A DNA stretch of 64,000 bases from positions 1,612,001 through 1,676,000 of the forward strand of contig NZ_CP131935.1 in assembly GCF_030704305.1 (NCBI RefSeq), written 5' to 3'. The position numbers were made by a program, and so were the translations under genes. The stretch comes from Massilia sp. R2A-15. Its GTDB lineage: Bacteria > Pseudomonadota > Gammaproteobacteria > Burkholderiales > Burkholderiaceae_D. The notes beneath the pieces were generated by a model. That model had not been told where the DNA came from, searched no databases, and saw only the letters and a program-made list of their open reading frames with translations. Of this stretch, positions 9,252 to 34,950 are shown piece after piece (within the stretch, counting starts at the first letter, position 1; every line of letters starts with the position of its first letter).

Positions 9252-12200
9252 ATGCAAGGCTCGATCCGAAACCTGGTGCGCCAGGCGCGCGCGCGGCACG
9301 TCGCATGGCGTCGCGCGCGCAACCTGAACGCGGCAACGCGCGCCGGCGCCCGGCCGCGTACGAAACCCGCTGCAACGCCCGCCTTGCGCATTAGGGTCCG
9401 CCCGGCCGCGCTCACGGCGGTGCACTGGATCGGTGCGGCGGGCGCGCTGGCGGCGCTGGGCGGCGCCTTGCTGCTCGCCGCGCACGCGCGCAGCCTCGCG
9501 GTGGCCGGCGACGTTCCCGGCACCGGCGGCCTGCCGCATCCGGTGGCCGCGTTCCAGCCCGCGCTGCCGGGCATCGCGTTCAGCGTGCCTGAGCAAGGCG
9601 GGATTACGGTGGAGGAGCACGAGGCGGGCGCGCTGCTGGTCGCCGCCGGCATGCGCAGCGCGCCGCCGTTGCGCATCGACCTGTGCGCGCAGATGGCGGG
9701 CACGCGGGACGGCCGCCTGCTGACGATCCGGATCGGTTACGGCTTCGACGAAGTGGCGCGCTGGGCCGAACGCGCCGCGAGGGTGGCGCCGCTGCGCAAC
9801 GTCGCGCTCAGCGGCCCGGACACGGCCGACATGCCGCGCGTGCAGGTCAGCGGAAACGCCATCAGAGATTTCGCCGCGCCCGACGCCGAGCCGCTGCAGC
9901 TGCGCTGGGACAGCGCCGATCGCGCGGTGCGCTGGATCGGCGACGCGGACTGGGGCAAGCCGGGTCAGGGCGCTCACGGCCAGGTCGCGCTGCGGCGTGA
10001 CGGCTGGCTGGTGTGGCGCCGCGACGCCGCGATGCATATCCAGCGCCGTGCCGGCGGCGCCTGTCCCGCGGGCGAACTGGTGGTGCAGGTGGTGCGCACG
10101 GCGCCATCGACATCCGCCGCCAGGGCCCAGGTGACGGCATATCCGTCGAACGGACAGCCGGTGACCGCATGGCTGGCCGCGGGACGCTACCTGGTGCCGA
10201 TCGACCCCGCGCGCGGCGTGGAAGACCAGGCGTTGTTCCAGGAGCTGCGGCGGCGCGGCATGATCCGCCTGGGCGCCGGTGGCCTGGCGGAACTGGCGCC
10301 GCGCGACCTGGCCGCGTGGCGCGCCGCTCCTGCCCCCGAGAGGGCGGGCCAGCTGGCCGGATGGGACAAGGTGGTGCTGGATCCGGCCGGCGTGAAGGTG
10401 CTGCGGCGCCTGTACCGCATGGCCGACGGCGAATACGTACGGGAACAGATACGCGTTTTCAATGGCGAGCGGCGCCTGCTGGCATGGCGCGTGCCGCAAG
10501 CAGCGCGCGAAGGGCAATGGCAGGCCAGCGTGGCAGGGGCGCCCGCCTCGCAGAGCAGCGCGATGCCGGCGTCGGCGGCGCGCCTGTTCACCGGGCTCGC
10601 CCAGGGATGGGCGCCGTGGACCCGTATCGACGCGTGGCCCGGCGGCGGCGCCGCGCGCCTGACGCTCGACCTCGCGCAGCCGGCGCAGGGCGGCGAAGCC
10701 GTGAAGCTGATGCTGATCGGGCGCGCCGCCAACGTGCAGGGTGCGCGCGTGCGCACGGCGCAGGATGCCTGCGGCGGGCGGGCCTGCCCCTCGCGCGACG
10801 CCGCCCAGGTGCTGGTGCTGGAACTGCTGCCCGGCGCGCGCAGCGTGTCGCTCGACGCCACGCCCCTCGACATGACGGCGCTGGCGATGCCGGGCGACCT
10901 GCAGTACCGCCACCTGCGCGTCGTCGGCGGGCAGCTAGACTGGCAGCAGCTTGCGCCGATGGCCGCGCCGCGGCCGGCCGCCCTGGCCGAGGTGACGCTG
11001 GAAGACCGCAATGGTGTGCCACTGTGGAGCGCCGGTGCGCCGACGCGCGCGGCGATCGACGCGGGCCTTGCGCCTTTGCTCGGCATCCGGCCCGATCACG
11101 CCAGCAGCGTGGCCGGCATGCTGGCACGGCTGCCGGCGCCCGGCGGCACGCCGCACGACGCGCGCCTGACGCTAGACCTTGCGCTGCAGGCGGCCAGCCA
11201 GGGCGCCCTCGACTGCATCGGCATGCGGCGCGGCCGCTGGGACGGCAAATCGTGCAGCGGCGGCTCGCCCGCCCCGGCCGGAAGGCACGCCGGCATCGTC
11301 ATCCTCGACACCGAAACCGGCGACATCCTGGCGGCGGCCGGCGCCGGCAACGCGCCCGTCTCCGCGGCGAACTGGAACGAAGTGCGCAATTTCGACCGCA
11401 CCGACCCGGCGCGCAGCCCCTTGCGGCTGCCGGCCCTGCAGCACGACGGCGGCGCCCATTCGAGTCCCGGCTCGACCTTCAAGGTGATCAGCGCGATGGG
11501 CCTAGAACAAGCCGCGCGGCGCGATCCGCAGCTCGAAGCGCTGCTGGCGGGAATGCCGCTGCCGGCGATCAACCGGGTGGCAAGCGAAAAGGGCTTCGCG
11601 TTCCGCACCGACGCCTCGGTCTATCCGGTGTCGGCCACGCTGGCGCACATCACCAACTACAAGGACCAGCACCTGGACCGGCGCGCGCAGGACGGCAGGC
11701 TGGGTTTGGCGCAGGCGCTGACATACAGCCTGAACACCTGGTTCGCCTGGTCGGGAGAACTGAGCGACCGCAGCCTGTTCGGCCGCGCCGAGGGCGGCGC
11801 GCCCGATCTGCAGCCGCTTGAACCGGGCGCGCTCGACAGCGTGCGGCCGATCGTCGCCATGGCGCACCGCCTCGGATTCGGCCAGGCGCTGCGTCTCGAC
11901 GCCGGCCTGCTGCCGGCCGATTTCGGCTGGTCGGCGTGGGATGCGCTTCAAGCCAGCCCTTCGAACATCGACCCGATCCACACCCGCCACGAGCTGCGCC
12001 AGATGTCGATCGGCCTGCGCATGCAAGTCACGCCGCTGCAGATGGCGCTGGCCGCCGGGGCGGTCGGCCAGGGCAGGGTGATCGCCCCGCGCCTGCTGCT
12101 CTCGCTCGACAAGCGCAACGCCGTGGAAGCGCCGATGCCGCCGCTCGGCGTGCGGCTGGACCGCATCCGGGCCGGCATGAAAGGCGTGGTGGACGTCGGC

Positions 12201-12485
12201 ACCGCGGCCGGCGCCTTCCGCGACAAGCGCTTCGACGGATTGCGCACGCGCCTGTCCGGCAAGACCGGCACTGCGCCCACCGGCCCGCAGGGCGGCGGCG
12301 ACTCGGCCACCGTCTGGTTCACCGGCTGGCTGGAGCCGGGCAGCCTGCCTCGCCAGCCGCACCGGCTGGCGCTGGCAGCCTTCGTCAGCCACTCCGACGC
12401 CACCGGCGGCGAACACGCGGCGCCGGTCGTCGCGGCGGTGCTGGCGTCCGCGCTTGCGCAGAATCATGAACAGAAGGGTAAATAG
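9252..12485 (+). CDS. Very long penicillin-binding transpeptidase
   Basis: A 1077-residue protein with a basic cytoplasmic head, one membrane segment (about 53-78) and a long extracytoplasmic part. The C-terminal transpeptidase domain has all three PBP motifs in order: STFK with nucleophile S741, SLN at 826-828 and KTGT at 1004-1007, so D,D-transpeptidase chemistry on peptidoglycan stem peptides is expected. The roughly 600 residues between anchor and active site are not a pedestal I recognise; usual class B PBPs (FtsI, PBP2) total about 580-650. ATG 9252 follows GGGGAA. The window also encodes a SEDS polymerase (31613-33991), the usual partner of a class B PBP. It is the first gene of the plus-strand cluster that reaches the kinase gene at 18566. 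Confidence 0.85.
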   Translation: MQGSIRNLVRQARARHVAWRRARNLNAATRAGARPRTKPAATPALRIRVRPAALTAVHWIGAAGALAALGGALLLAAHARSLAVAGDVPGTGGLPHPVAAFQPALPGIAFSVPEQGGITVEEHEAGALLVAAGMRSAPPLRIDLCAQMAGTRDGRLLTIRIGYGFDEVARWAERAARVAPLRNVALSGPDTADMPRVQVSGNAIRDFAAPDAEPLQLRWDSADRAVRWIGDADWGKPGQGAHGQVALRRDGWLVWRRDAAMHIQRRAGGACPAGELVVQVVRTAPSTSAARAQVTAYPSNGQPVTAWLAAGRYLVPIDPARGVEDQALFQELRRRGMIRLGAGGLAELAPRDLAAWRAAPAPERAGQLAGWDKVVLDPAGVKVLRRLYRMADGEYVREQIRVFNGERRLLAWRVPQAAREGQWQASVAGAPASQSSAMPASAARLFTGLAQGWAPWTRIDAWPGGGAARLTLDLAQPAQGGEAVKLMLIGRAANVQGARVRTAQDACGGRACPSRDAAQVLVLELLPGARSVSLDATPLDMTALAMPGDLQYRHLRVVGGQLDWQQLAPMAAPRPAALAEVTLEDRNGVPLWSAGAPTRAAIDAGLAPLLGIRPDHASSVAGMLARLPAPGGTPHDARLTLDLALQAASQGALDCIGMRRGRWDGKSCSGGSPAPAGRHAGIVILDTETGDILAAAGAGNAPVSAANWNEVRNFDRTDPARSPLRLPALQHDGGAHSSPGSTFKVISAMGLEQAARRDPQLEALLAGMPLPAINRVASEKGFAFRTDASVYPVSATLAHITNYKDQHLDRRAQDGRLGLAQALTYSLNTWFAWSGELSDRSLFGRAEGGAPDLQPLEPGALDSVRPIVAMAHRLGFGQALRLDAGLLPADFGWSAWDALQASPSNIDPIHTRHELRQMSIGLRMQVTPLQMALAAGAVGQGRVIAPRLLLSLDKRNAVEAPMPPLGVRLDRIRAGMKGVVDVGTAAGAFRDKRFDGLRTRLSGKTGTAPTGPQGGGDSATVWFTGWLEPGSLPRQPHRLALAAFVSHSDATGGEHAAPVVAAVLASALAQNHEQKGK

Positions 12486-12581
12486 GCGGTTCAAGCGCGC
12501 CTTGCGGACCGCGGTTGTATGGCATGATTTTGATGTGTCCGCCACCGGGCGGACCGGCCAACGACGATTCGAGGAAAGGGT

Positions 12582-13724
12582 ATGCGCCTGCCGGGGACCC
12601 GCTACCAGGAGCACGGGTGGGAACAAGTGCGCAAGATGCTGGGACTGTGCTCCCTGGCGGCGTTCGCCCATGCCTCGCCGGCGCGCCTGCTCGATCCTGG
12701 CTGCCGCCCGGCCGCCTTGTCCGAATATGTCGACCATACATCGGGCGCCTTGCGCGCCACTTGGCGGTCGGCGCGCGCGGAAACGCCCGCCAACAGCTAC
12801 GGCGAGAGCGTGCTGGAACTGGCGCTCGGCCTGCTGTTCGAATTGCAGGCTCGGCCCGCCGACTGGGACGCGTTCGCCGTCGCGGTGGAGAACGAGCACG
12901 GAAAGATCGGCGCGTTCTGGGACCAGGCCGGCGGCGACGCGATCCTGCGCAAGAAGGTCAACGACATGTACGCGGTCCTGCGCGACAAGGTCGATTCGGA
13001 CAACTACCAGGTCGCGTGCGGGCGCAGCTGCAGTCCCAACAAGATGTACGCCTACCGCATGATCGACACCGCGTACGGCGACATCGCCCGGATCTTCGAC
13101 GCCTGGCGCCAGCATCCGGGCCAGGTCGGCGCCATCCTCGGGCGCGAAGTGGGCGCGGCGGCGGCCCCGATCGAAGTGCGCCAGATGAAGTCGATCGCCG
13201 GCTGCAAGCCGGAATGGGTGATCAACTGGAGCGAGTCGCGCGAGCGGTTCACCGGCGCCCCGGGTCCCTTGCATACCCGCTCGAAGCGCTTCGCGAGCTT
13301 GAGACACTGCCCGGACCGGATCGGCGCGATGCTGCGCGAGATTGGCGACTACGAAGAACTGTCGGCCAACCGCGACTGCGACTGGCAGCAGGACGGCGTG
13401 GACGCCGCGGGCTGGCTGGACGACCTGGCCCGCGTGTTCGACGAAGCGGAGCGCGAGCCCGATGTTTCACCGGCCCCCGGCTACATGAATCTGATGAGCG
13501 CCGCCGGGCCGATGGCAGGCCAATCGCTGCCCGTGCGCCTGGCGGTGTACCTGAAAATGCTGGGGGCGCACGACGACAGCTATCCTGCCGAATGGCTCGA
13601 TCCCGTCACCGGCGAACTGCCGACGATGCAGCAGCTGGCGATGATGGACCAGGTCTCGTTGCCGACGCTGCGCAAGCGGCGCGACGCCGCCATCGCCACG
13701 CTCCTTGGGGCGCAGCGACCATGA
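12582..13724 (+). CDS. Unknown protein of the PBP/kinase cluster
   Basis: A 380-residue soluble protein with no signal peptide or membrane segment and no family I recognise. Scattered cysteines (C23, C41, C146, C150 and others) could bind metal. The last 35 residues (LPTMQQLAMMDQVSLPTLRKRR) resemble a helix-turn-helix of the sigma-region-4 kind, so DNA or protein binding is possible. A GAGGAAAGGG ribosome site precedes ATG 12582. Its stop overlaps the next start (ATGA at 13721), so it heads a run of closely packed unknown genes behind the penicillin-binding protein. Confidence 0.7.
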   Translation: MRLPGTRYQEHGWEQVRKMLGLCSLAAFAHASPARLLDPGCRPAALSEYVDHTSGALRATWRSARAETPANSYGESVLELALGLLFELQARPADWDAFAVAVENEHGKIGAFWDQAGGDAILRKKVNDMYAVLRDKVDSDNYQVACGRSCSPNKMYAYRMIDTAYGDIARIFDAWRQHPGQVGAILGREVGAAAAPIEVRQMKSIAGCKPEWVINWSESRERFTGAPGPLHTRSKRFASLRHCPDRIGAMLREIGDYEELSANRDCDWQQDGVDAAGWLDDLARVFDEAEREPDVSPAPGYMNLMSAAGPMAGQSLPVRLAVYLKMLGAHDDSYPAEWLDPVTGELPTMQQLAMMDQVSLPTLRKRRDAAIATLLGAQRP

Positions 13725-14281: not shown

Positions 14282-14286
14282 GCACG

Positions 14287-15321
14287 ATGGCTGGCCTCTT
14301 CAAATGGCCTGAGCGCGGCCCCGTCGTGGATACGTCGGGGCTGGGTGCCGCCGTGATTGCGATGCCGCTGCCTGCCGGAGCCGCCGTTCCGCCCGGGTGC
14401 GCCGCGGTGCTGGTGGACCGCGGCGGTCGCACCCGGCGCGCGCCCGACGGCGCCAGGCTCGCGCCGGAGCCCGGCGAAACCGCATGGGCCTTCCACCCCG
14501 GCCCCTACCATGCCGACCTGGCTCCCTTCGCGCAGGCTCCCGAAATCGGCCTGCGCGTGGCCTTTGCGATCGACAGCCCCGATCCGCGCGTGGCGCAGCA
14601 GCGGTTCGACCTGTACCTGGCCAGCGAAGCGGCCGATGCGGTCCCGCTGGACCGGTTCTGCGAGGCGATCCAGGCCGCGCTGCGCCACGAACTGTCGCAG
14701 GGCCACCTCGAACTGCCGCCTTGCACGACGCTGGCCGAGTGGAATGCGTTTCGCGCCGGCTTCAACCAGCTTCTGTACATGCGCTTCGGTGTAACGGTGG
14801 AAGAGTGCGTGCCGGCCGACCTTGGCGAAACGGTCGATTTCGCGCAGATCCTTTTGGCGCGCCGCGAATCCGCTCCCGAATCGGCGAGCGCCGTCGCGCC
14901 TGCGGCAGCGCCGGAGCCGCTGTCGGACGCGCGCGCGCTGCGCCGGCTGTTCCTCGAACTGCCATGCGTGATGTGCGGCCTGCGCCTTGCCGTGCTGCCT
15001 TCAGGCGCAGGGTTGTTCCGCCGCCACCAGGAACTGCTGCAGCGGCTGGACCTGGCCAACCTGTCGGCTGCGACGATGCCGGCGCTGGAGCTGGCGGCGC
15101 CGGGGGTGCCGCTCGACGCGTGCCAGCAGGCGCGGCGCATCCGGCAGGTCCGGCGCGCGGTCGCCGCCCTCGACGAGGCCTGGGCGCTGCTGGCGCGCCT
15201 GCAGCCGGGCGGCGACGCGCAGATGGCCGGCCTGTTCGACGAGGCCGAGCGCATCGTCGCCAACCTCGAATACCATACCGGCGAGCGCCGTCTCGCGCTG
15301 TCCGAAAGCGAGCCGGCATGA
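14287..15321 (+). CDS. SPFH-like protein of the PBP/kinase cluster
   Basis: A 344-residue protein without a signal peptide. Residues about 20-185 resemble an SPFH/band-7 domain: a beta-rich first half, then the pattern of strand (GLRVAFAID), helix (LDRFCEAIQAALRHEL) and a helix ending in a strand (FGVTVEECVPADL), which parallels the clearer SPFH region of the protein at 16422. This is a by-eye similarity. A CxxC pair (C227, C230) follows a low-complexity linker, then a helical C-terminus. The stop overlaps the next start (ATGA at 15318). It could scaffold membrane-associated partners as flotillin-like proteins do. Confidence 0.6.
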   Translation: MAGLFKWPERGPVVDTSGLGAAVIAMPLPAGAAVPPGCAAVLVDRGGRTRRAPDGARLAPEPGETAWAFHPGPYHADLAPFAQAPEIGLRVAFAIDSPDPRVAQQRFDLYLASEAADAVPLDRFCEAIQAALRHELSQGHLELPPCTTLAEWNAFRAGFNQLLYMRFGVTVEECVPADLGETVDFAQILLARRESAPESASAVAPAAAPEPLSDARALRRLFLELPCVMCGLRLAVLPSGAGLFRRHQELLQRLDLANLSAATMPALELAAPGVPLDACQQARRIRQVRRAVAALDEAWALLARLQPGGDAQMAGLFDEAERIVANLEYHTGERRLALSESEPA

Positions 15322-16322
15322 ACCGCTTGCCCGACAGCGCCGAATGCTGCAGCCTGCTCGCCGACGGGACCATCCTGACGGCGACGGCGACCCGGCGGCC
15401 GCGCGCCGACCGCGCCGACATCAAGTGCAGCGGCGCCGGATCGCCGGCGCTGGCCGAGCGCATGCTGCAGGTGCTGCGCCTGGCGCGCCACACCGAGCCG
15501 CGTTTCGACAGCCGCGACCAGGTCGTGGTGAGCATCGACCGCGCCCCTGGCATCCACGAGCGCGACTGGGAACTGGCGGTGGTGCTGGCCGACCGCATCG
15601 TGCGCGGGGTCTGGCAGCCGTCCGCGCCGGCCCTGGCGAACGGCTGGTCCGATACATGGGAACTGGGACGGATCGGCGGCCATGCGGTTGGCGGCGCGCC
15701 CCAGCACGCGCTGCTGGGCGGGCCGGACGGACTGGCGCATCTCGGCATGCTGACCGGCCAGCCGGACCAAGCGGGGGCGGTGTCGTCGGCGCGCGCCTGG
15801 TTCCCGCTGCACAGCGGCGGCATCAACGACAGCCTGTGCTGGGTCGAGGTCAGCGTTTTTCCGCTGGCGCGCGAAGCCGGCGAGGAAGAAGACGCGATCG
15901 CCACGCCCGGCCTGGACCTGACGCAGCAGCTGGCGGTGCGCCAGGCCCTGGCCGGCGCGCGCCATTTCGACGGACGCGGCCTGGGGCGCTGGCGCAGCGT
16001 GGTGCGTTTCGGCCAGCCTCGCTTTCACGGCAATTCCTTCGAGCTGGCGCTGGTGATGGCCGACCGCCTCGCGCGCGGGCGCGAGTTCCTGCCGCGCGGC
16101 CGGATTATCGCCACCGGCTGCTCCGGCGCCTGGCATGCGGGGCGGGTCGATCCGGTCGATGGACGCGAGCCGAAATGCGCGCTGATATTGCAGCAGGCGG
16201 TCGACGGCGACCGTATCCTGCTGCCGGCCGCGTGGGAAAACGAGCTGGCGCCCGGGTTCGCGCAGGCGGTGCGCGCCAAGGGCGCCAGCGTGGCCTGCGT
16301 CGGGCGCATCGGGATCATCTAG
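15318..16322 (+). CDS. Protein with duplicated Lon-like (S16-type) half-domains
   Basis: A 334-residue soluble protein with an internal duplication: WELAVVLADRIVRG (84-97) and FELALVMADRLARG (241-254). The second copy is followed by RIIATGC, GRVDPVDG and REPKCALILQQAV, the order seen in the Lon protease S16 domain (serine before a helix, then TGEV..GRVLPIGG and KxKxxAA). S240 (in HGNSFELAL) and K286 (in REPKCAL) occupy the Ser and Lys dyad positions; the first copy has D83 where the serine would be. I infer a Lon-like fold with one intact and one degenerate half. Peptidase activity is unproven, and there is no ATPase domain. Translation is coupled to the gene upstream. Confidence 0.55.
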   Translation: MNRLPDSAECCSLLADGTILTATATRRPRADRADIKCSGAGSPALAERMLQVLRLARHTEPRFDSRDQVVVSIDRAPGIHERDWELAVVLADRIVRGVWQPSAPALANGWSDTWELGRIGGHAVGGAPQHALLGGPDGLAHLGMLTGQPDQAGAVSSARAWFPLHSGGINDSLCWVEVSVFPLAREAGEEEDAIATPGLDLTQQLAVRQALAGARHFDGRGLGRWRSVVRFGQPRFHGNSFELALVMADRLARGREFLPRGRIIATGCSGAWHAGRVDPVDGREPKCALILQQAVDGDRILLPAAWENELAPGFAQAVRAKGASVACVGRIGII

Positions 16323-16375
16323 ACAATAGCGGCGCACGCCTCGCGTGCGTCATGTAAAAGCATGCCTGCCCCTGC

Positions 16376-16381: not shown

Positions 16382-16421
16382 CGAAGCGGGAGGGCCACGG
16401 ATAGAATAACCAGGAGTCGAT

Positions 16422-18557
16422 ATGTTCCAGATGTTTGGATTTGGCGGCGTCAAATGTCCGCGCTGCGAGCACAAGAACGCCGACGGCGCGGGCTACTGCG
16501 CCCAGTGCGGGCTGACGCTCGGCGCGCCGCGCAACGAGCCCGTGCTGCGCGAGAACCGCTGGATCCCCGGCCCCGGCGAACTGGCCGTGTTCTTCGGCGT
16601 GCGCGAGCTTTCGGGCCTGTTCGTCAAGACGCTGCGCGTGCCGGCCACCACGCGCGCCTATATTCTGCAGGGCGACAAGGCCACCGAGGTGCCGCAGGGC
16701 GAATACGAAATCGAGGGCTTCTTCACGCGCCTGAACCACCTGCTGCGCAACCAGCACGCCGAAATCCTGATCACCCGCAGCGCCGCCATGCCGGTCCAGT
16801 TCGAATTTAACGACTTGCCGACCGCCGAGCACCTGCCCGTTGCGGCCAGCGTCACCGTCAGCGTGCGGATCGAGCAGGTAGCCGCCTTCGCGCGCCACTT
16901 CATGACCCTGCCGGGCACCGTCACGACGGAACACCTGCGCGAGCTGCTGGCGCCATCGGTGCGCCAGCTGGCCGCCGAATTCATCGCCGGTCAGTCGCTG
17001 CGCGACATGGCGCGCAATCCGGAACTGCGGGCCCAGCTCGACGAACGGCTGCAGGGCGCGTTGAAGATGCGGCTGGCGCAGTACGGGCTGGCGGCGGTGC
17101 AGGTCGATACGGTGTCGCTGAAGCACGACAAATTCGACGCCAGCCGCGAGCGCATCGGCACCTTGTGGCTGGTGGTTGACGACCGCCACGTCGAACTCGA
17201 ACATGCGAAGCAGCTCGACCAGCTGTACGACGACGCCGAATGGCAGCGCATCCACCGCGAGGAACTCGAAAGCCGGCTGCGCTACCGCCGCGCCGAGCTG
17301 CGCCAGGATGAAGCCATCGAACGCGCCGAGCTGTCTCTGCAAAACACCGAGCGCATGCAGGCGGTGCGCGCGCGCGAGATCGAGCTGTATTCGCGCGTCG
17401 TCGAGTCGAAGAACCGCAAGCAAGCGATCGAGCGCGGCGCCGGCGACGTGCTGGCCGAACTGGAGCACGAGCTGGCCAAGAAGGACGCGGCGCGCGCCGA
17501 CGAATCGGCCGACTGGGCGCACCTGCGCCACATCGCCCAGATCCGCATGCGCACCGAACTGGAGATCTCGCAGCAGGAAGCGCTGGAGGCACGCCAGCTG
17601 GCGCAGCAGCGTTTTTCGCACCGGCTGCTGCAGCAGCAGATCGAGAACAAGGTCGCGCAGGCGATGCTGATCGAAGACGAGTCGCGCAAGCGCGCCGAAC
17701 TCGATCGCCTGCAGTCGGGCCAGAAGGCGGCGGCGCGGCGCCTGGCCGAGATCGAGGAAGAGGAGCACAAGGCCAGGTGGCAGTCGCTGGCGCTGATCAA
17801 CGCGGCGCACAAGCGCGAGGCCGAGCGCATGCAGGAATGGGAAAACCAAGTGGCGCTGGAGCGCCAGCATGAACTGCTGCGCGGCGGCTCGCTGCTGGCC
17901 GAGGAGACCAACCAGAAGCTGGAAGCGATGCGGCGCGAAGGCGCCACGGCCGAATCGATCGCCCAGTACGAAAAGCTGCTGCGCACGATCGAGGCCGACG
18001 GCGTGCAGTCACGCCAGGCGCAGAAACTGGCGCTCGAAGGCGAGGAGGCGCGGCTCGCGATGAAGCGGCAGGCGCAGGAAGCCGAATGGCAGCACGAGCT
18101 GCGCCGCCTGGAGCATGAGCGCGAGGACAAGTTCGCGCACCTGGCGCATCTGGCCGACATGGCGCGCATCGAAATTGCGCGGGTCGAGGCGATCGGCGCG
18201 ATGGGCGACACTGCCAAGGTGGCGCTGGCTGCGGCGCCGAACGCCGCCGCGCTGGCCGATTACATGAAGACGCAGGTCCATGCGGGAATGAGTCCGCAGC
18301 AGCTGGCGGCGCTGGCCGGCGTGGTCGGCGCCACCAACAACGTCACTGCGCAGGAAGCGTCGCGCATGGCGGAGCAGCGCGTGCAGCAGGAAGCGGCGCG
18401 GCGCGACGCCGAGGTGGACAAGGACCGGCGCCACCAGCTCGACCTGGTCAATTTGCAGCATGACCTGCAGCGGGGCACGCCGCGCTGCGACAACGGCCAC
18501 GCGGCGCAGCCGGGCGACCGCTTCTGCGCGCAGTGCGGCGCGGCCCTCCGACCCTGA
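16422..18557 (+). CDS. SPFH-domain protein with zinc ribbons at both ends and a long coiled coil
   Basis: A 711-residue cytoplasmic protein. Zinc-ribbon cysteines C12, C15, C26, C29 open the chain and C689, H693, C702, C705 close it. Residues about 50-250 fit an SPFH/band-7 domain; about 260-600 is a charged coiled coil rich in E, R and Q. SPFH proteins build membrane-associated rings or scaffolds, and terminal zinc ribbons usually bind protein or nucleic acid. AGGAG precedes ATG 16422. It is 8 bp from the kinase-FGE gene and is probably its direct partner or substrate. It has no transmembrane segment, so membrane contact would depend on the SPFH domain. Confidence 0.75.
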   Translation: MFQMFGFGGVKCPRCEHKNADGAGYCAQCGLTLGAPRNEPVLRENRWIPGPGELAVFFGVRELSGLFVKTLRVPATTRAYILQGDKATEVPQGEYEIEGFFTRLNHLLRNQHAEILITRSAAMPVQFEFNDLPTAEHLPVAASVTVSVRIEQVAAFARHFMTLPGTVTTEHLRELLAPSVRQLAAEFIAGQSLRDMARNPELRAQLDERLQGALKMRLAQYGLAAVQVDTVSLKHDKFDASRERIGTLWLVVDDRHVELEHAKQLDQLYDDAEWQRIHREELESRLRYRRAELRQDEAIERAELSLQNTERMQAVRAREIELYSRVVESKNRKQAIERGAGDVLAELEHELAKKDAARADESADWAHLRHIAQIRMRTELEISQQEALEARQLAQQRFSHRLLQQQIENKVAQAMLIEDESRKRAELDRLQSGQKAAARRLAEIEEEEHKARWQSLALINAAHKREAERMQEWENQVALERQHELLRGGSLLAEETNQKLEAMRREGATAESIAQYEKLLRTIEADGVQSRQAQKLALEGEEARLAMKRQAQEAEWQHELRRLEHEREDKFAHLAHLADMARIEIARVEAIGAMGDTAKVALAAAPNAAALADYMKTQVHAGMSPQQLAALAGVVGATNNVTAQEASRMAEQRVQQEAARRDAEVDKDRRHQLDLVNLQHDLQRGTPRCDNGHAAQPGDRFCAQCGAALRP

Positions 18558-18565
18558 CTGGAACG

Positions 18566-20779
18566 ATGCAGACCGCACGAGACAAGATCCGCGAACTGCG
18601 CGCCCTGCACGAAGACGGGCTGCTAAGCCTGCAGGAATTCGACAGCCGCAAGAACGCCATCCTGGACGCCGAGTACGCGCCGCCGGGCGGGGTGTCCGCG
18701 CCTGTCCGCCAAGGTACCGAGATCGGACTGATGGCGGGCCAGGAGATCGGCCCGCAGAACCGCCGCTACAAGCTCGAACGCCTGATCGCGCAAGGCGGCA
18801 TGGGCCAGGTGTGGCAGGCGATGGACCTGGCCACGCATGAGGAACTCGGTCACAGCGCCTGCGTGGCGCTGAAGATCCTGCCGCCGCAGCTGACCGTCAG
18901 CCCGACGCTTGCCAAGCTGCTGGTCGAGGAGGCGACCCAGGCGCGCCGCCTGGCCCACGAGAATATCGTGCGGGTCTACGAATGGGCGCAGGACCCGGCC
19001 ACGGCGAGCTACTTCATCATCATGGAATGCCTGGAAGGCGAGGACCTCGACAGCCTGCTGGCGCGCGAGGGGCCGTTTTCGCTCGAACGCGCGACCGGGC
19101 TGCTGGCGCCGGTGGCCGAGGCGCTGGCGTATGCGTGGGAGAGGCACCGGCTGGTGCACCGCGATATCAAGCCCGGCAACGTGTTCGTCACCAAAAAGGG
19201 CGAGGTCAAGCTGCTCGACTTCGGCATCGCCGCGCGCGCCCGTTCGAGCGCGAGCAATATCGGGCTGGAGGCGCCGGCTAGTTCCGGCACGGCCGGCTAC
19301 CGGGCGCCGGAAGCGGGCGTCTACCAGCGCGAGCCAGCGCGCGCGCTCGACGTGTACGCGGTCGCGGTGATGATCTACCAGATGGTTGAGGGACGCATGC
19401 CGTTCGACGGCGTGCGCAGCGCGGCGCACCAGCCGCCGCAGCCGGCCGCGCTCACCGCGCCCCAATGGCAGGTGCTGCAGTCCGGCTTTGCCATGGACCC
19501 GGAACAGCGGCCGGCCAGCGTGGCCGACCTGCTCGACCAGCTGCGCCGCGCCGCTGCTCCGACGCCGCAGCAAATCGCCGCCGAACAGGCGGAGGCGCGC
19601 GCGCGGGAGGAGCTGCGTCAAAAGCAGCTGGCGGCGCAGCGCAAGGCCAATGCGCAGGCGGCAGCGGCGGCCCAGCTGATCCGCGACCAGGAACGGCGCG
19701 CGAAGGAAAAGGCCGAGCGCGCGCTGGCGGAAGCGGCGCGGCGCGAGCGCAAGGAAGCGCTGCGCCAGCAATTGCGCGACCGGCGCGCGGCCGACGCCGA
19801 GAAGGCGCGGCTGGAGCAGGAAGAACGGCAGCGCAAGCTGCTGCAGGCGAAGGCCGCGGCGGCGTATCGCGAAGAGCAGCATCGCGCGCGCCTCGAAGCG
19901 GCAGCGCGGGTGCAGGCGGAACTGGACCGGCTGCTGCCGACCGCCGCGAGCCCGGTGGCCGACACCGAAGGCGTGCTGCGTGACCGCTTCCTGGACGGCT
20001 CGGGGGTGGCGCCCGACCTGGTCCTGATTCCGACCGGGCGCTTTCAAATGGGCTCGCCCGAACACGAACGCAAAAAAGCGATGGAGGCCGGATCGCTGCA
20101 ATCGTGGCTGGACCGCGAGACGCCGCAGCACTGGGTCGGGATCGAACAGCCGATCGCGCTGGGGCGCTATCCGGTCACCGTTGGCGAATGGCGCCGCTTC
20201 GCCGAGGCGACCGGCTGGCAGCCGCACGAGGAGTTCAACTGGGACGCGCCGGGCTTCGCGCAGGGCGAGGATCATCCGGTGGTCGGGGTGTCGTGGCACG
20301 ACGCGCAGCGCTACGTGGCGTGGCTGGGCGAGATGACCGGCCAGCGCTATCGCCTGCCCAGCGAGGCGGAGTGGGAGTACGCCTGCCGCGCCGGCACCAA
20401 GACGGCGTTCAGCTTCGGCGACGCCATCAGCACCGATCTGGCCAACTTCGACGGCAACCATAGCTACAATGGCAGCGCGATGGGCGAATACCGGCGCGGC
20501 ACGACGCGGGTCGGCGAGTTTCCGCCGAATCCGTGGGGACTGTACGACATGCACGGCAACGTGTGGGAGTGGGTGCAGGACCCGGTGCACGACAATTACG
20601 ACGGTGCGCCGAACACGGGCGCGGCCTGGGAGGAGGGCGGCGATCCGGGACGGCGCATCCTGCGCGGCGGTTCATGGCTGTACAGCCCGCGCTACCTGCG
20701 CTCTGCGCTGCGCAACGGCTTTTCGGCGGGACGCAGCAATGGCATTGTCGGCTTTCGGGTGGCGCGCAATTTGCTGTGA
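18566..20779 (+). CDS. Ser/Thr protein kinase fused to an FGE-sulfatase domain
   Basis: A 737-residue protein. Order: SHOCT-like helical hairpin (about 5-36), Hanks-type kinase (about 68-330), charged coiled coil (about 335-458), FGE-sulfatase/SUMF domain (about 478-736). Kinase motifs are intact: QGGMGQV loop, K103 in VALK, HRD at 198-200, DFG at 218-220, APE at 247-249, so it should phosphorylate Ser/Thr. The FGE domain shows GRFQMGSP, PSEAEWEYACRAGT, DMHGNVWEW and ILRGGSW; in bacteria this fold is often a binding module instead of an enzyme. No transmembrane segment, unlike PknB-type receptors. ATG 18566 has only a weak ribosome site, so coupling to the gene 8 bp upstream is likely. Confidence 0.9.
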   Translation: MQTARDKIRELRALHEDGLLSLQEFDSRKNAILDAEYAPPGGVSAPVRQGTEIGLMAGQEIGPQNRRYKLERLIAQGGMGQVWQAMDLATHEELGHSACVALKILPPQLTVSPTLAKLLVEEATQARRLAHENIVRVYEWAQDPATASYFIIMECLEGEDLDSLLAREGPFSLERATGLLAPVAEALAYAWERHRLVHRDIKPGNVFVTKKGEVKLLDFGIAARARSSASNIGLEAPASSGTAGYRAPEAGVYQREPARALDVYAVAVMIYQMVEGRMPFDGVRSAAHQPPQPAALTAPQWQVLQSGFAMDPEQRPASVADLLDQLRRAAAPTPQQIAAEQAEARAREELRQKQLAAQRKANAQAAAAAQLIRDQERRAKEKAERALAEAARRERKEALRQQLRDRRAADAEKARLEQEERQRKLLQAKAAAAYREEQHRARLEAAARVQAELDRLLPTAASPVADTEGVLRDRFLDGSGVAPDLVLIPTGRFQMGSPEHERKKAMEAGSLQSWLDRETPQHWVGIEQPIALGRYPVTVGEWRRFAEATGWQPHEEFNWDAPGFAQGEDHPVVGVSWHDAQRYVAWLGEMTGQRYRLPSEAEWEYACRAGTKTAFSFGDAISTDLANFDGNHSYNGSAMGEYRRGTTRVGEFPPNPWGLYDMHGNVWEWVQDPVHDNYDGAPNTGAAWEEGGDPGRRILRGGSWLYSPRYLRSALRNGFSAGRSNGIVGFRVARNLL

Positions 20780-25102: not shown

Positions 25103-25170
25103 TGGCAAGCGGGCAGGCAGAATAACAATGCTGACAGCTTACCAAGGATTCGCAGCTTTCCATGCGCCGA

Positions 25171-26991: not shown

Positions 26992-27025
26992 TGGCACTCA
27001 CCCTGTAAATCCTCCAATGCCCAAA

Positions 27026-29652: not shown

Positions 29653-30099
29653 TCAACGCCGCTCGTCCGCGCGCCGCAGCCACAGGCTGCTGACCCATCC
29701 CGTCGCCGGCTTGCCGCCCACGCGCGTGCTGACCTCCCACCAATCGCCTTCGCGCGTGCCGGTCGTCGTCACCACCGCGCCGACAGGAACCACCGCCAGC
29801 CGCCGCGCGCCGATGCCGCTGCCGGCGCGCAGGTTGAGATCCTCGAACACCAGGTAGCTGCGGCCCGCCGTCGGCCACACCGGCCGGATCGCTGCGAGGC
29901 CTTCGGTCGCCGTCGTCGTGGCCATCGCCGGTTTCGGCAGCGCCTGGAAAAGCAGGCTCCCGATGCCCCACGTTCCCGCAACCAGGATCGCCAAGGCGCG
30001 CGCGTTTGGCCGCTTCCACCAGCGGCCCGGCGTCAGGAACGCCGCCAGCACCAGCGTCAGCGCCAGTCCCGCCGCGAACGCCGCGATCATGTAAGCCAT
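29653..30099 (-). CDS. Membrane protein with a bacterial SH3 domain
   Basis: A 148-residue protein with two N-terminal membrane spans (about 1-22 and 35-55) and an SH3b domain (about 88-145; NLRAGSGIGARRLAVVPVG, then GDWWEVSTR and GWVSSLWLRR). Bacterial SH3 domains commonly bind peptidoglycan peptides. GGAGG lies 5 bp before ATG 30099. It is the last gene of the operon kinase - SEDS - FHA-like - SH3b, 11 bp after the gene upstream, so a cell-wall-binding role fits its partners. Confidence 0.8.
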   Translation of the reverse strand: MAYMIAAFAAGLALTLVLAAFLTPGRWWKRPNARALAILVAGTWGIGSLLFQALPKPAMATTTATEGLAAIRPVWPTAGRSYLVFEDLNLRAGSGIGARRLAVVPVGAVVTTTGTREGDWWEVSTRVGGKPATGWVSSLWLRRADERR

Positions 30100-30110: not shown

Positions 30111-31643
30111 TTACGCGTCGAAGCGCAGCACGTAATGGCCGGCCACCAAGTGATGCCCGGCCGGCAGCAGGTAAGGCGTGTCGCCGCCGATGCCGGCGAC
30201 GAAGCGCATCTGCTCGTCGAGGTGGTACAGCGCCTGCGTCGCGCTGAGGCGGCCGATCTGGTAGCCGCCGCCCGCCGCTTCGAAGCTGAAGGCATTGCGC
30301 GACAGGCCGATGCGGTCCGCGCTGGCGCTGTCGAAGCCTTCCGAGCGCCGCAGGAAGCGCGCCTGGTCCAGCACGCGCAGCGCCGCCAGCATCGGCGCGC
30401 TGCGGCCGAACACGAAACGCGCGCCGCTGGCCGCCGGCACGGCCGGCGGATTGGCCAGGGTCAGGATCGCCGAGTAGCGGTCGGCCATCTCGGGCGCCAC
30501 CGCGGACAGCGTCACCGTGCCGCCTTCGACCGGCGTAAACGTCGCCGGCACCGCGATGCGTTCGCGGCCGGCGCCGGTGATGGCGTGCAGTTCGTCGCCG
30601 GCGTCCACCGCGAAGCTGATGATGGCATCTTCGGCGTGGGCGGCCACGCCGAGCGTGCGATCGAGCCCGATTTCCAGGGCCAGCGCGCCGGTTTCGCGGT
30701 AGCGCGACAGCCGCGGCATCGCCAGCGCCACCAGGCTTACGCGCTGTTGCGACACGGGCGCGTAGGTCGCGTCGCCCTCGACGGGCGTCGAAGGCCGGTG
30801 GCTGCCCGGCACCGCGGTCAGTTCGACTTCGTCCGGCGCGCGCGAGCGCGTCTTCCACACGGCTGCGGGCTTGAGCTGGATCGGCGACGCTGCCGCCGGC
30901 TTGTCCGGCGCCGCGGCTGCGGGCGCGACGCGCGTCACCTTCATCAGCAGCCTGGCCCCGGGGCCATCGAGCTTCGACTTCACTGTGAAGTAGCCGCCGA
31001 TCGGATCGAAGGTGCAATCGAATGCGCCTTTCGGGCGCACCTGGACCTCGATCGGGGCATCCGGCCCGTCGTTGATCAGGAGGATCGCGCCGTCGGCGCC
31101 GAACGGCCAGTCCGGCGCCGCGTGGCTGGCCGACTGGTCGTCCGCGCCGATCAGCGCCAGGCGCTGGTTGGGGTAGATCGAACACACCGGCTTCCAGATC
31201 GCACTGTCGCGCGACGTCGTGACCGCGTACAGCACCTTTTCATCCGGCGCCGGCAGGTACACCGCGTGCCCGAACTTTACCTCGACCTGGCCCGGCTCCA
31301 GCGAGTCGGCGCCGACCACGTCGTAGCGCACCTCGTCGCTGCCGAGCAGGTCGCCGAAATCCTTCTGATGCAACTGGGCCAGCGACTGCGCCAGGTCGCG
31401 CACGCGCGCGCCGCGCGTGAGGTGGCGATCGTCGTCCACCTCGTCCTGCGGCAGCATCAGCGTCACGTGCGAGAAGCAGCGCGTGGCGGCGCGGCCGCGG
31501 TGTTCGCGCGGCGATCGTTCGAGCAGGTCGCGCAGCAGCGGCCTGCGCGCAAACAGCGCCAGCCCCGGCGCCTGCCACAGCGCCTCGGCGTTGAAGACAT
31601 CAGGCACCTTGCCTAGCACTTCGTGTTGGACATAGACCGGCAT
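30111..31643 (-). CDS. FHA-like protein of the SEDS operon
   Basis: A 510-residue soluble protein. The C-terminal 75 residues (IGLSRNAFSFEAAGGGYQIG, then a loop, LLPAGHHLVAGHYVLRF) match the FHA fold pattern: SR-N-x-F, a strand, and the closing L..G..I..G...LRF; the usual S-x-x-G-T-x-x-N loop is degenerate. The remainder is mostly beta with no family recognised. GAGGAGAT precedes ATG 31643, which lies inside the end of the SEDS gene (31-bp overlap), so it is co-translated with it. It may read phosphorylation by the kinase that heads the operon. Confidence 0.65.
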   Translation of the reverse strand: MPVYVQHEVLGKVPDVFNAEALWQAPGLALFARRPLLRDLLERSPREHRGRAATRCFSHVTLMLPQDEVDDDRHLTRGARVRDLAQSLAQLHQKDFGDLLGSDEVRYDVVGADSLEPGQVEVKFGHAVYLPAPDEKVLYAVTTSRDSAIWKPVCSIYPNQRLALIGADDQSASHAAPDWPFGADGAILLINDGPDAPIEVQVRPKGAFDCTFDPIGGYFTVKSKLDGPGARLLMKVTRVAPAAAAPDKPAAASPIQLKPAAVWKTRSRAPDEVELTAVPGSHRPSTPVEGDATYAPVSQQRVSLVALAMPRLSRYRETGALALEIGLDRTLGVAAHAEDAIISFAVDAGDELHAITGAGRERIAVPATFTPVEGGTVTLSAVAPEMADRYSAILTLANPPAVPAASGARFVFGRSAPMLAALRVLDQARFLRRSEGFDSASADRIGLSRNAFSFEAAGGGYQIGRLSATQALYHLDEQMRFVAGIGGDTPYLLPAGHHLVAGHYVLRFDA

Positions 31644-33991
31644 GATTGAATCTCCTCGGATGATTGGGCGCTGATCGCACTGAACGCTAGCAGGGGGCAG
31701 ATGAAAAACAGCAGGTGGCTGCCGCCGGCCGAGAGAAAGCTCATGGGCTGGCCCATGATCGGGAAAATCGCCAGGTTGGTGCCCCACGAGAGCAGGAAGT
31801 GGCCCAGCACGAAGGCGGCGCCGCCGCACAGTGCGAAGCAGCGGAAGCGGCCCATCCAGGCGTGGCGGAAATCGCGCGCTTCGACGCTGGCGGCATACGA
31901 GCGCGCGGCTGTCTGCAGCACCCCGACCAGGAACAGCGCCTGCAGCATCCACAGCGCGAGCGCGCCGGCCAGGCCGTGTCGGTTCACGAAGAACGACGGC
32001 GCAAAGTCGTCCTGCACCTGCGGGATGTGCAGCGCGCTGCCGGCCGGCTGGCCCAGCGACGAGATGCCGAGCAACTGGTCCGAGCCCCACCACGCGCCCT
32101 CGGCGATGGCGCGCGCACCGAGCAGCAGCTGCTGGCCGGTGTGCGGATGGCTGGCCGGATCCAGCCACACCAGGAAGCGGTCGGCGTAAAAGGTCCATTG
32201 GGACACCTCGCCGGCGCCGGCGCCGCGCAGCCAGGCGATGGACGCCGCGGCGCCGCAGGCGAGGCCGACGATGGCGGCCGTGGCGAGATACTTGCGCGCC
32301 GCCAGCGACCAGGCGAACGCCATCGCCATGCTCCATACCAGCAGCAGGATCAGCGGCGAGTAGTCGTCCACCTGCACCAGCGCGAGGCCAAGCAGGGCGA
32401 GGAACAGCAGCGCCGGGGCGGCGAGCCGGAACCAGCGCAGGACGGGATGGATGTGCGCGGGCAGCGCCGCATCCCATCCGAGACCGAGGGCGATGCAGTG
32501 CGCGGTCAGCGCCGTCAGCGCAAGCTTGGCGAATTCCACCGGCTGCAGGTCGAACACCCCGGTTTCGTCGCCGAGCACCACTTGCAGCAGCAGGGCCGCC
32601 AGCGCGCCGCACGCGAGCAGCGCGAGCATCCATTCGAGCCGGGTCTGCGGCATGACGAAAGCGCGTCCGCCCAGCCGCAGCCGCAGGTGCGCGCCGATGC
32701 CGAGGCCGATTGCCAGCAGCGCGGTGGACTTCTGATAGTGGCGCAGCCAGGACGACTCCATGGCGCCGAGGCCCAGTTCGAGCTGCGCGAGCAGGCCCAC
32801 GGCAAGCAACAGCACGCCCGCCGCCGTCACCAGCGACGGGCGTCCCGGCAGCATCAGGCAGCACCACATGGCGGCGCATCCGAGCAGGATCGACACGCCG
32901 ACGCCGGGCGGCGTGCCCGCGCGCTGCAGGACCAGGGCGGCGATGCCGGCGATGGCAAGCAGCACCGTGGCAAAGCTCGCCGCGCGGGTGGCGGGGGCGA
33001 CGCCGCGCTCGAACGGCCAGCGTCCGCGCTGCCATGCGAGGGCGCCGGTGGCCGCGAGCGCGCCGCACAGCACAAGCGCCAGGAGCCACGCCGGCCCGCC
33101 GGACAGCGCCCACGGTCGTCGCCAGCCCCATTCCCATTGGACCTGCGGCGGCAGCTCGACGCGCGCGTCAAGGAACAGGGCGACGTGGCCCACTGGCCTG
33201 AATTCCAAGCGGTCGTTCGCGATGCGAATCGCAAGGCGCGTATGGCCGGCGACCAGCGCCGTTACGCCGTCGAGCGGAACTTCGTTGCGCGCCAGGTCGA
33301 AGCTGCCGGCGCCCGAGGCCACCAGCATCGGCGCGGTGCCGCCGCCGCTTGCCAGCAGCAGCCGGCCATTGCTGCGGCCAAGCGTCGCGGCGCCGATTTC
33401 GATGTGTTCCAGTCCCAGGCGGTTGTCGCAATACAGATTGCCGCCGAATGAAAGCGGCCGCGCGAAGGTCATCGTGCGCGGCGCCCAGCGGTTCCACAGC
33501 GCCGCGACGCGGGCGCCCAGCCGGGCGTCGGGGCAGGGCGGCAGAGCGCGGCCGTCACGCTGCAGGGTTGCGCCGTCGTAGCGCCAGCGCTGCCCGGCGC
33601 CGGCAAATGCGACGGAATGGTCGTCGCCCGATTGCACCGTGAACAAGGCGCCGCCGATGCGAAATTGCTGGCCTTCGCGCAGGGCGATTGTCCCGGTGCG
33701 CAGCTCCGATCCGTCGCGCTGCAGCAGCAGCTGCCGGTTGCCGCTCACATTGCGCGCAAACCAGCGGCCGGCCAGATCGCGCCGAATGCCGACGTGGGCC
33801 CTGTCGGCCTGCGGCGCGGCCAGTTCCTGCCGCCCCAGCGTGATCGACTCGCCCGGCTTGAGCGACAGCGCGATGAGTGCCGGCGACATCACCGCCGGCG
33901 AGCGCCACAGCGCCACCAGCTGCAAGGCGCACAGCACGCCGAGCGCGATCGCCGCGACCAGGAATCCGCCAAGGTGGAGGCGCCGGATCAT
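31613..33991 (-). CDS. RodA/FtsW-family (SEDS) glycan polymerase with N-terminal FHA-like domain
   Basis: A 792-residue membrane protein; usual RodA/FtsW are 370-420. Order: membrane span (7-29), FHA-like beta domain (about 45-120; GESITLGR, then HVGIRRDLAGRWFARNVSG), a further beta-rich part to about 290, span 301-320, then the SEDS core (about 335-775). The core has DLQPVEFAKLAL at 481-492, DP...GQQLLLGARAIAEG at 611-632, PQVQDDF at 657-663 where D662 matches the catalytic Asp of FtsW/RodA, and PIMGQPMSFLSAGGS at 744-758, so lipid II glycosyltransferase activity is plausible. ATG 33991 overlaps the kinase stop (ATGA). The extra domain faces the side set by span 1, probably periplasm, which is odd for a phosphothreonine reader. 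Confidence 0.85.
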   Translation of the reverse strand: MIRRLHLGGFLVAAIALGVLCALQLVALWRSPAVMSPALIALSLKPGESITLGRQELAAPQADRAHVGIRRDLAGRWFARNVSGNRQLLLQRDGSELRTGTIALREGQQFRIGGALFTVQSGDDHSVAFAGAGQRWRYDGATLQRDGRALPPCPDARLGARVAALWNRWAPRTMTFARPLSFGGNLYCDNRLGLEHIEIGAATLGRSNGRLLLASGGGTAPMLVASGAGSFDLARNEVPLDGVTALVAGHTRLAIRIANDRLEFRPVGHVALFLDARVELPPQVQWEWGWRRPWALSGGPAWLLALVLCGALAATGALAWQRGRWPFERGVAPATRAASFATVLLAIAGIAALVLQRAGTPPGVGVSILLGCAAMWCCLMLPGRPSLVTAAGVLLLAVGLLAQLELGLGAMESSWLRHYQKSTALLAIGLGIGAHLRLRLGGRAFVMPQTRLEWMLALLACGALAALLLQVVLGDETGVFDLQPVEFAKLALTALTAHCIALGLGWDAALPAHIHPVLRWFRLAAPALLFLALLGLALVQVDDYSPLILLLVWSMAMAFAWSLAARKYLATAAIVGLACGAAASIAWLRGAGAGEVSQWTFYADRFLVWLDPASHPHTGQQLLLGARAIAEGAWWGSDQLLGISSLGQPAGSALHIPQVQDDFAPSFFVNRHGLAGALALWMLQALFLVGVLQTAARSYAASVEARDFRHAWMGRFRCFALCGGAAFVLGHFLLSWGTNLAIFPIMGQPMSFLSAGGSHLLFFICPLLAFSAISAQSSEEIQSCRSMSNTKC

Positions 33992-34950
33992 GCCGCCCTC
34001 GACACGGTGGTGGCGCTGCGCACATCGGCGATCATGCGGCTGATCGCCAGCGCGTGGGGTGGCCGCTCGTGGCGATCGGCGCTGAGCAGGCGGCGCAGCA
34101 GGGCGAGCGCCGGTGTGCCGGCTTCCCCGGCCCGCTGCGCGAACTGGACAGCTTCGTCGTCGCGCAGCGTGGGCGGCATCGCGCCGCCGTGGCTGGCCAG
34201 CAGGAACGCGGCGCCGCCGGCCTGGTGTTCACGGTAGGCCTGGCCGCAATCGCTGCAAAAGCGCAGCGGCAGCCCGCCCGTGACCAGGTAGTAGAACATC
34301 GCGCCCAACGCAAAGTAGTCGCTGCGCGTATCGGTGTGGTAGCGGCCATCGCGGTCCGGGAAGAACTGTTCCGGCGCCTGCCAGTTGGCGGTGCCCGCGT
34401 AGCCGTGCGGCGCCGCTTCGCCGAGCAGGCGATTGGTGCCGAAATCAGTCAGCTTGACTCCGCCCCGGACGGTGTCGAGCAGGACGTTCGACGGCTTCAG
34501 GTCGAGGTAGCGCCAGCCGTACTGATGCACTTTTGCCAGCGCGTCATTGATCTGGCCGAGCCAGGACAGCGCCTGGCCGAAGCCGATCGCGCCGCCCGCG
34601 CGGCGCAGGCGCGCGACATGGCTCGCCACGTCGGCGTCGAGCAGTTCGAGCGCCATCACGGGCAAGCCGTCGTGCATGCCGCTATCGAGCAGGCGGACGA
34701 TGTGGCGCTCGTCCCAGGGCGCAAGCGAACGCAGGAACGCAATCTCCTTGCTGGCGCTGGCGATCCAGCGCTCGCGCTGTTCCGGCCGGGCGCGCGCCAT
34801 CTGCTCCCGGTTAATTAGCTTGAGCGCAACCTGGCGGCCAGCCGGCAGCGCGTCGGCGCACCAGACCACCCCGTAGGCCGAGCGGGCCAGCGGCGCGCGC
34901 AGGCGGTAGGCGCCCGCTTCGAGTGTGATGACCGCGCCCGCATCCAGCAT
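33988..34950 (-). CDS. Ser/Thr protein kinase, soluble
   Basis: A 320-residue Hanks-type kinase with no membrane segment. K44 in VALK, catalytic D150 in YLDLKPSN, DFG at 169-171 and APE at 192-194 are present. HRD is changed to YLD, and the glycine loop is poor (LARSAYGVVW), so activity is likely but may be altered. A CSDCG pair (C232, C235) with nearby cysteine-poor surroundings forms half a zinc site. It heads the operon to the SEDS gene (ATGA overlap), making the SEDS, FHA-like or SH3b proteins the probable targets. Confidence 0.85.
   Translation of the reverse strand: MLDAGAVITLEAGAYRLRAPLARSAYGVVWCADALPAGRQVALKLINREQMARARPEQRERWIASASKEIAFLRSLAPWDERHIVRLLDSGMHDGLPVMALELLDADVASHVARLRRAGGAIGFGQALSWLGQINDALAKVHQYGWRYLDLKPSNVLLDTVRGGVKLTDFGTNRLLGEAAPHGYAGTANWQAPEQFFPDRDGRYHTDTRSDYFALGAMFYYLVTGGLPLRFCSDCGQAYREHQAGGAAFLLASHGGAMPPTLRDDEAVQFAQRAGEAGTPALALLRRLLSADRHERPPHALAISRMIADVRSATTVSRAA

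Follow-up and report, generated by a model that had tools for sequence, protein, structure and literature searches.

A putative third SEDS-PBP pair in a kinase-linked gene cluster of Massilia and its relatives

A stretch of 64,000 nucleotides from Massilia sp. R2A-15 (the window; positions 1,612,001-1,676,000 of a single 5.03-Mb contig, mean GC 0.66) encodes a SEDS protein and a divergent class B-type penicillin-binding protein (PBP) that, judged by their sequences, are extra to the RodA+PBP2 and FtsW+FtsI of the host. They are accompanied by two Hanks-type Ser/Thr kinases, a PP2C-type phosphatase and an FHA protein. We give about even chances to the interpretation that the SEDS protein and the PBP form a dedicated third envelope-glycan synthase, beside the elongation and division synthases, which is probably switched by Ser/Thr phosphorylation. 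This reading is carried by the gene content of the locus, by the catalytic residues and by the separate ancestry and co-retention of the two proteins. Genes are designated below by their first coordinate (Table 1).

The SEDS protein and the penicillin-binding protein

The initial annotation placed the canonical pairs elsewhere in the genome, and they were found at about 184-186 kb (rodA/mrdA) and about 346-354 kb (ftsW/ftsI) of the same contig. Genome-wide, PF01098 occurs at three places and PF00905 at nine. In a tree of 24 SEDS cores the window type forms its own clade with a support of 100/100, separate from RodA (99/98) and FtsW (96/89). Likewise, in a tree of 29 transpeptidase domains the window type (100/100) is separate from PBP2 (96/98) and FtsI (100/100), and a branch with a support of 100/97 divides the class B rows, among which the window PBP falls, from those of class A and 1C. 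The tree program warns of long branches, which makes the placement of the new clades unsure, but not their separateness. With canonical pairs elsewhere and separate clades in both trees, we reject the possibility that the two window proteins are the only RodA and PBP2 of the host, and they are not its FtsW and FtsI either.

The SEDS protein 31613 matches PF01098 with 67.7 bits (curated cut-off 26.4) over positions 98-348 of 356. It is predicted to consist of a transmembrane (TM) helix, a periplasmic region of about 270 amino acids, three further TM helices and a 10-TM core, that is, four helices more than usual. In the predicted structure the core shows the RodA/FtsW fold, with structural matches to 6pl6, 6pl5, 8p1u, 8tj3, 6bas and 6bar. 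We aligned seven window-type rows with 17 canonical SEDS proteins and checked single residues more widely in 38 window-type members. The catalytic aspartate D662 (TDF, extracellular loop 4) is present in 38/38 and is aligned with the TDF of the 17 canonical proteins; Q660 and F663 are invariant along with it, the most distant aligned members included. Five more canonical residues (Q483, E486, K489, D543 and R605) are also retained in all 38.

The seven-row clade retains just 22 of the 59 near-invariant canonical columns. Together with the extra periplasmic region, this would suit a catalytically dead SEDS protein that acts as a scaffold or that senses either lipid II or the canonical synthases. 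However, a pure scaffold would not be expected to need the aspartate, and as noted above D662, F663 and Q660 are invariant, so that we consider a dead protein improbable.

The periplasmic region has an FHA-like fold in the predicted structure. By sequence, Pfam gives no match and hhalign a probability of 9.5%, so the suggestion that this protein carries a further FHA-like domain is borne out by structure prediction and not by either sequence search. The region differs from the FHA domains of MDC1, GarA, ArnA and EssC in being predicted to be periplasmic, in having the phosphate-binding arginine in only 16 of the 38 members and in having no conserved serine.

The PBP has a single N-terminal TM helix (residues 72-90), a long region that has no domain assignment, with about 700 residues before the catalytic serine, and a C-terminal transpeptidase domain, in which the motifs S754xxK757, S839xN841 and K1017TG are invariant in 6/6 sequences. 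Pfam finds no GT51 domain in it and, at 0.01, no PBP dimer/pedestal domain. The best PDB relative of its profile is 4mnr (E 2.8e-13), presumably from an actinobacterium. In one genome (G552) the PBP gene lies in two parts (C1:5589715-5591394 and C1:6001379-6002794), 410 kb apart and on opposite strands, as if by an inversion; the SEDS match of that genome is full length and has no stops.

Co-retention, neighbourhoods and distant versions

The SEDS protein is present in 128 of 392 genomes of the family, which belong to five of 44 genera, and in five of 300 genomes of a wider draw from the order; the PBP is present in 127 of the 392. The two family counts are treated as one genome draw, the listed genomes being identical, with at most two candidates scored per genome. 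Both proteins occur in 126 genomes, the SEDS protein only in two, the PBP only in one and neither in 263; the assemblies of the three exceptional genomes are either incomplete or fragmented. The better-than-chance co-occurrence that the initial annotation needs is thus seen, and neither of the two outcomes that it named as refuting was found. More telling than the family-wide count is the genus g138, where 12 of the 14 genomes with all candidates scored are without the SEDS protein, and those 12, along with G303, are absent from the PBP list. Four g138 genomes (G490, G501, G584 and G627, the last with a SEDS fragment at a contig end) have both proteins, and the genes are unlinked in two of them, being 849 kb apart in G501 and on different contigs in G584. 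A further g138 genome, G635, has the SEDS protein and no PBP match; its assembly is 83% complete.

The best 80 of 210 named SEDS loci come from Massilia, Duganella, Rugamonas, Pseudoduganella, Telluria, one Janthinobacterium, one Herbaspirillum and other Oxalobacteraceae, Burkholderiaceae and Pseudomonadota records, the nearest named homologues being those of Massilia and Telluria. A tblastn search at 1e-5 found no plasmid-borne relatives of the SEDS protein.

Twenty neighbourhoods of 40 kb were compared, 19 from the family and one from Chitinilyticum (G139). The kinase, SEDS and 30111 genes are adjacent in all 20, the FHA gene is present in 19 and the PP2C gene in 18, and the PBP gene is within reach in 11. 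Among 70 named loci with full flanks, compared separately, the kinase, 30111 and SH3b genes are kept in 70 each, PP2C in 68 and FHA in 67; the MFS (25) and GNAT (35) genes between the blocks and a pirin gene (39) are kept less often. Over 58 of the 70 loci, the correlation of pairwise distances is higher among the cluster genes than between them and the M28 peptidase gene, although the pairs are not independent. In Chitinilyticum the PP2C, 30111, SEDS, kinase and PBP genes lie within 14 kb, at 31-44% identity, next to genes for a LysM lytic transglycosylase, caspase-FGE proteins and AAA proteins; there are no recognisable homologues of the FHA protein 22509, the SH3b protein or the SPFH block in these 40 kb. 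In Chitinilyticum a LysM lytic transglycosylase gene (L065:14981-16513) follows 30111 directly, a further link to the wall. The SEDS protein is absent from twelve other genomes of the G139 family, one of them of the same genus. As the initial annotation would have it, the SEDS gene remains in the company of those for the kinase, the phosphatase and the FHA protein, and a compact form in another family, that of Chitinilyticum, includes the PBP gene.

The most distant version is smaller. A 30111 profile matches seven of 399 genomes in the order, three of 274 in the class (Massilia sp. R2A-15 itself, G845 and G975) and one of 200 in the phylum (again its own). In G845, a Contendobacter-type gammaproteobacterium, the SEDS gene is directly followed by 30111, and this genome (99% complete) encodes RodA and FtsW as well as the window-type SEDS protein. 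The latter has 102 relatives, the named ones mostly from metagenome-assembled genomes of Candidatus Contendobacter and Competibacter. In G975, 30111 lies at a contig end and SEDS was not seen there. Across the versions seen, the smallest shared core is thus SEDS plus 30111.

Several observations weigh against a third SEDS-PBP synthase. First, the GxxRW motif between TM3 and TM4, present in 17/17 canonical SEDS proteins, is deleted in the window type (0/38), and the aromatic residue of SYGG/SFGG is lost, the seven tree rows reading SAGG, SSAG or SAAG. According to one report, the W138A, Y379A, G380A and D297A variants of E. coli FtsW fail to complement (PMC8765783), and another assigns K97-W102 and E258-F263 of RodA to the modelled active site (PMC10449877). 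With both features lost, polymerisation of ordinary lipid II cannot be assumed. Second, the co-occurrence of the SEDS protein and the PBP lies mostly in one clade and does not represent 126 independent events. Third, an M28 peptidase gene (68/70) and a glycine-zipper gene (66/70) are kept as well as the cluster genes, so that shared synteny within this group does not on its own single out the cluster. Finally, the 40 kb examined in G845 hold no other parts of the cluster, kinase and phosphatase included, and no homologue of PBP 9213 is among the four transpeptidase matches in that genome; they are FtsI, PBP2 and two proteins outside the tree that resemble class A and 1C proteins by score and size. 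The PBP, kinase and phosphatase are consequently not obligatory partners of SEDS plus 30111, and the set of partners that had been proposed is not complete in G845.

Judged by its residues, the SEDS protein is one in which the catalytic aspartate is kept and the substrate site is remodelled. An altered substrate, an altered acceptor or a very different binding would all be compatible with it, but plain identity with RodA/FtsW function would not, and for now the protein should be classed as a third SEDS clade and not as a RodA/FtsW-type polymerase. These losses in 38/38, along with a new set of residues (R417, Q470, E476, W609, R671, W736 and N739) that is invariant in 38/38, could also mean that it is a SEDS-fold glycosyltransferase with another job. 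It would then join or transfer a modified lipid II or some other glycan linked to undecaprenol, 30111 would be the cytosolic protein that it cannot do without, and the PBP would act separately. The presence of SEDS and 30111 in G845 without this PBP fits such an enzyme. However, the catalytic aspartate and the five further residues are kept, the class B PBP is co-retained almost perfectly over the 392 genomes, and the SEDS gene is close to the PBP gene in Chitinilyticum; we regard another job as rather unlikely. The separate SEDS-PBP machine of the initial annotation thus stands as an extra, co-retained pair, while ordinary peptidoglycan synthesis by it is unproven.

The well-kept M28 and glycine-zipper genes and the three separate transcription blocks would also be expected if unrelated neighbours were held together by regional synteny, with the kinase-FGE, FHA and PP2C proteins serving some other pathway. 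We give this little probability, as the compact Chitinilyticum version has neither the M28 nor the glycine-zipper gene in its 40 kb, the SEDS protein and the PBP are co-retained where they are unlinked, and the intervening MFS and GNAT genes are poorly kept. Because the cluster is conserved across relatives, its genes are more than chance neighbours, and it is a conserved module, functionally linked as far as co-retention tells.

Gene layout, kinases and a possible mechanism

The genes form three blocks, as had been described: the PBP to kinase-FGE genes (+, 9213-20779), then PP2C followed by FHA (-), and kinase, SEDS, 30111 and SH3b (-). Pfam confirms the kinases, FHA, SEDS, PBP and SH3b proteins and PP2C, the last just below its cut-off; the zinc-ribbon/SPFH gene and the conserved genes 12582, 14287 and 15318 are additions to the earlier list. 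In the third block the kinase and SEDS genes overlap by 4 nucleotides and the SEDS and 30111 genes by 31, and the start of 30111 is backed by MPxYVQHE, the conserved N-terminus of many orthologues. The kinase-FGE gene, counted from its GTG start, overlaps the preceding gene by 25 nucleotides. A scan for promoters and terminators was uninformative (five promoter-like sites against 2.0 expected, 11 terminator-like sites against 11.5). Between the window and G338, dN/dS is 0.20-0.32 for the SEDS, 30111, kinase, FHA and PP2C genes, which by this measure are under ordinary purifying selection.

Table 1. Genes of the cluster and their positions in the window (TM, transmembrane helix; ORF, open reading frame)
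Feature	Positions	Strand	Remarks
Divergent class B-type PBP	9213..12485	+	Transpeptidase Pfam 6.7e-18; ATG start at 9252 equally possible
Conserved protein, no TM, no Pfam match	12582..13724	+	Orthologues 52-65% identical adjoin the PBP in the Telluria group
Conserved protein	14287..15321	+	ORF open from 13948; orthologue matches mostly start near residue 114
Conserved protein	15318..16322	+	Orthologues 62-69% identical; no Pfam match above chance, no PDB match
Zinc-ribbon and SPFH/Band 7 protein, long helical-looking tail, second C-terminal zinc ribbon	16422..18557	+	
Hanks-type kinase fused to FGE domain	18533..20779	+	GTG start at 18533, ATG at 18566
Soluble FHA protein	22509..24023	-	Pfam FHA 1.7e-5
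PP2C-type phosphatase	24143..25108	-	Weak Pfam match 3.7e-5; orthologue 44% identical in Chitinilyticum G139
Small SH3b membrane protein, two TM	29653..30099	-	SH3_3 1.2e-8; last gene of the kinase-SEDS block
Soluble partner protein 30111	30111..31643	-	FHA-like GR...SR signature in the C-terminal part; of all companions, the one kept most persistently with SEDS 31613
Third SEDS protein	31613..33991	-	FTSW_RODA_SPOVE 1.2e-18
Soluble Hanks-type kinase	33988..34950	-	Pfam kinase 8.6e-28

The kinase 33988 has K44, E69, D150, N155 and D169 (DFG) invariant in 15/15 sequences; its HRD motif reads YLD and its glycine loop is degenerate. Protein 18533 matches the Pfam FGE (1.2e-58) and kinase (4.7e-38) models. 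No PASTA domain was found in either kinase, the NCBIfam PknB_PASTA scores being 196 and 75 bits against a cut-off of 450. Among four neighbouring FGE proteins scanned in Chitinilyticum, two have caspase-like regions and one a sigma-70-like region instead of a kinase, which suggests that FGE may serve for binding or as an effector in this setting. In the FHA protein GR (298-299), S329 and RH (331-332) are invariant in 16/16. PP2C 24143 is 0.2 bit below the Pfam cut-off and matches the NCBIfam Stp1-type model at 1.9e-12, far below the cut-off of that model; its sequence contains the motifs DGMGGH, GDSR, TDG and DN. As for 30111, its GR...SR residues are invariant in 30/30, but Pfam finds no FHA domain in 15/15 members and a profile comparison with FHA 22509 gives a probability of 0.3%; the FHA-like domain proposed for it is a candidate that these residues support. 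Among the orthologues of the zinc-ribbon/SPFH protein, five of 14 match Band_7 (best 1.6e-8) and 13 of 14 Zn_Ribbon_1; the window protein itself matches only Band_7_1, at 0.018. None of 15318, the SPFH protein, 30111 and FHA 22509 had a match when their profiles were compared with the PDB. By eye, the C-terminal part of 15318 resembles a Lon-type (S16) region, without Pfam or PDB support.

From the gene content and the conserved kinase and FHA residues we infer the following phospho-control of the proposed SEDS-PBP synthase. The soluble kinase 33988, tied to the SEDS protein by its gene overlap and through it to 30111, may have as its substrate either 30111 or the basic tail (residues 1-71) that the PBP has in the cytoplasm. 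FHA 22509, and perhaps 30111, would read the phosphothreonine and then assemble or activate the SEDS-PBP pair, and PP2C would reset the phosphorylated state. Because its phosphate-binding arginine is not conserved, the periplasmic FHA-fold region of the SEDS protein would not be a phospho-reader but presumably a docking domain, for the long N-terminal region of the PBP, the SH3b protein or the wall. The SEDS protein would join a lipid-linked glycan by means of its conserved aspartate. As it has neither the GxxRW loop nor the SYGG tyrosine, it must handle its substrate or acceptor in a way that departs in detail from that of RodA/FtsW. The PBP would crosslink the product. The block with the kinase-FGE, zinc-ribbon/SPFH and three conserved genes probably acts upstream, as a sensor or as a scaffold. 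A bolder proposal, which we put forward only tentatively, is a third SEDS lineage that has a new invariant set of residues in place of the substrate-binding loops of RodA/FtsW, keeps the catalytic aspartate, docks by its periplasmic FHA-fold region and, under Ser/Thr-kinase control, makes or attaches an envelope glycan different from ordinary peptidoglycan strands, with SEDS plus 30111 as its core from Oxalobacteraceae to Competibacteraceae.

Other features of the window can be mentioned briefly. A RelA/SpoT-type (p)ppGpp gene (2289-4544) precedes the PBP gene by 4.7 kb. The low-GC stretch 27000-29000 (0.50-0.54) between the SH3b and GNAT genes, with an ORF (27707-28432) that is unmatched in the 20 neighbourhoods, is probably a recent insertion. 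A second one, 40000-43729 (0.50-0.58), adjoins a tRNA-Leu gene (43643-43729) and contains a weakly HNH-like ORF (42338-43504; 8.8e-6, below the cut-off); it is possibly an integrated element. An anti-phage system was also considered and rejected: seven of ten cluster proteins have no match, the two kinases match generic kinase models and PP2C weakly matches PDC-M21C (3.7e-6).

Comparison with known systems

Among the targets of antibiotics, SEDS enzymes are of major importance, and a clade that keeps the catalytic aspartate without the surrounding loop is a natural experiment on the residues that set substrate choice. The hosts are culturable, mostly environmental genera such as Massilia and Duganella, and the genes are accessible to one-by-one deletion. 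Among the open-licence literature matches listed, no title or abstract start deals with this cluster, which is a weak negative.

The well-studied SEDS pairs are RodA-PBP2, FtsW-FtsI and close paralogues of these. The window proteins share with them the SEDS fold, the catalytic aspartate and the SxxK, SxN and KTG motifs of the PBP. They differ in their separate clades, in the missing GxxRW and SYGG aromatic, in the predicted extra helices and FHA-fold region of the SEDS protein and in the long N-terminal region of the PBP, where Pfam detects no PBP-dimer domain.

A kinase, PP2C, FHA protein and FGE domain are likewise combined in the threonine-phosphorylation pathway (PpkA/PppA/Fha/TagR) of the type VI secretion system, in which TagR is the FGE-type part. 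In the window, however, FGE is fused to a kinase and the set is linked to SEDS and PBP. Moreover, in line with the initial annotation, the 40 window ORFs scanned have no tss-type domain (the scan did not extend to some 20 further window ORFs, most of them small, or to the remainder of the genome). That the cluster belongs to this pathway is hardly credible.

The full actinobacterial order is fhaA-fhaB-pstP-rodA-pbpA-pknA-pknB. As the comparison system we used the kinase-linked rodA-pbpA operon of actinobacteria, as described in PMC3989709. There, as here, SEDS, class B PBP, Ser/Thr kinase, PP2C and FHA roles stand side by side. In contrast, the window kinases are without PASTA domains, one being soluble and the other fused to FGE; the SEDS protein is not RodA-like; 30111, SH3b and SPFH genes are added; and the host has a canonical RodA/PBP2 as well. 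With trees that were built without actinobacterial SEDS or PBP sequences, the cluster would best be seen as a variant of the SEDS-class B PBP and Ser/Thr-kinase theme, and its likeness to that operon as an analogy. If the kinase control is true, it would be a Gram-negative counterpart of the kinase-controlled wall synthase of actinobacteria.

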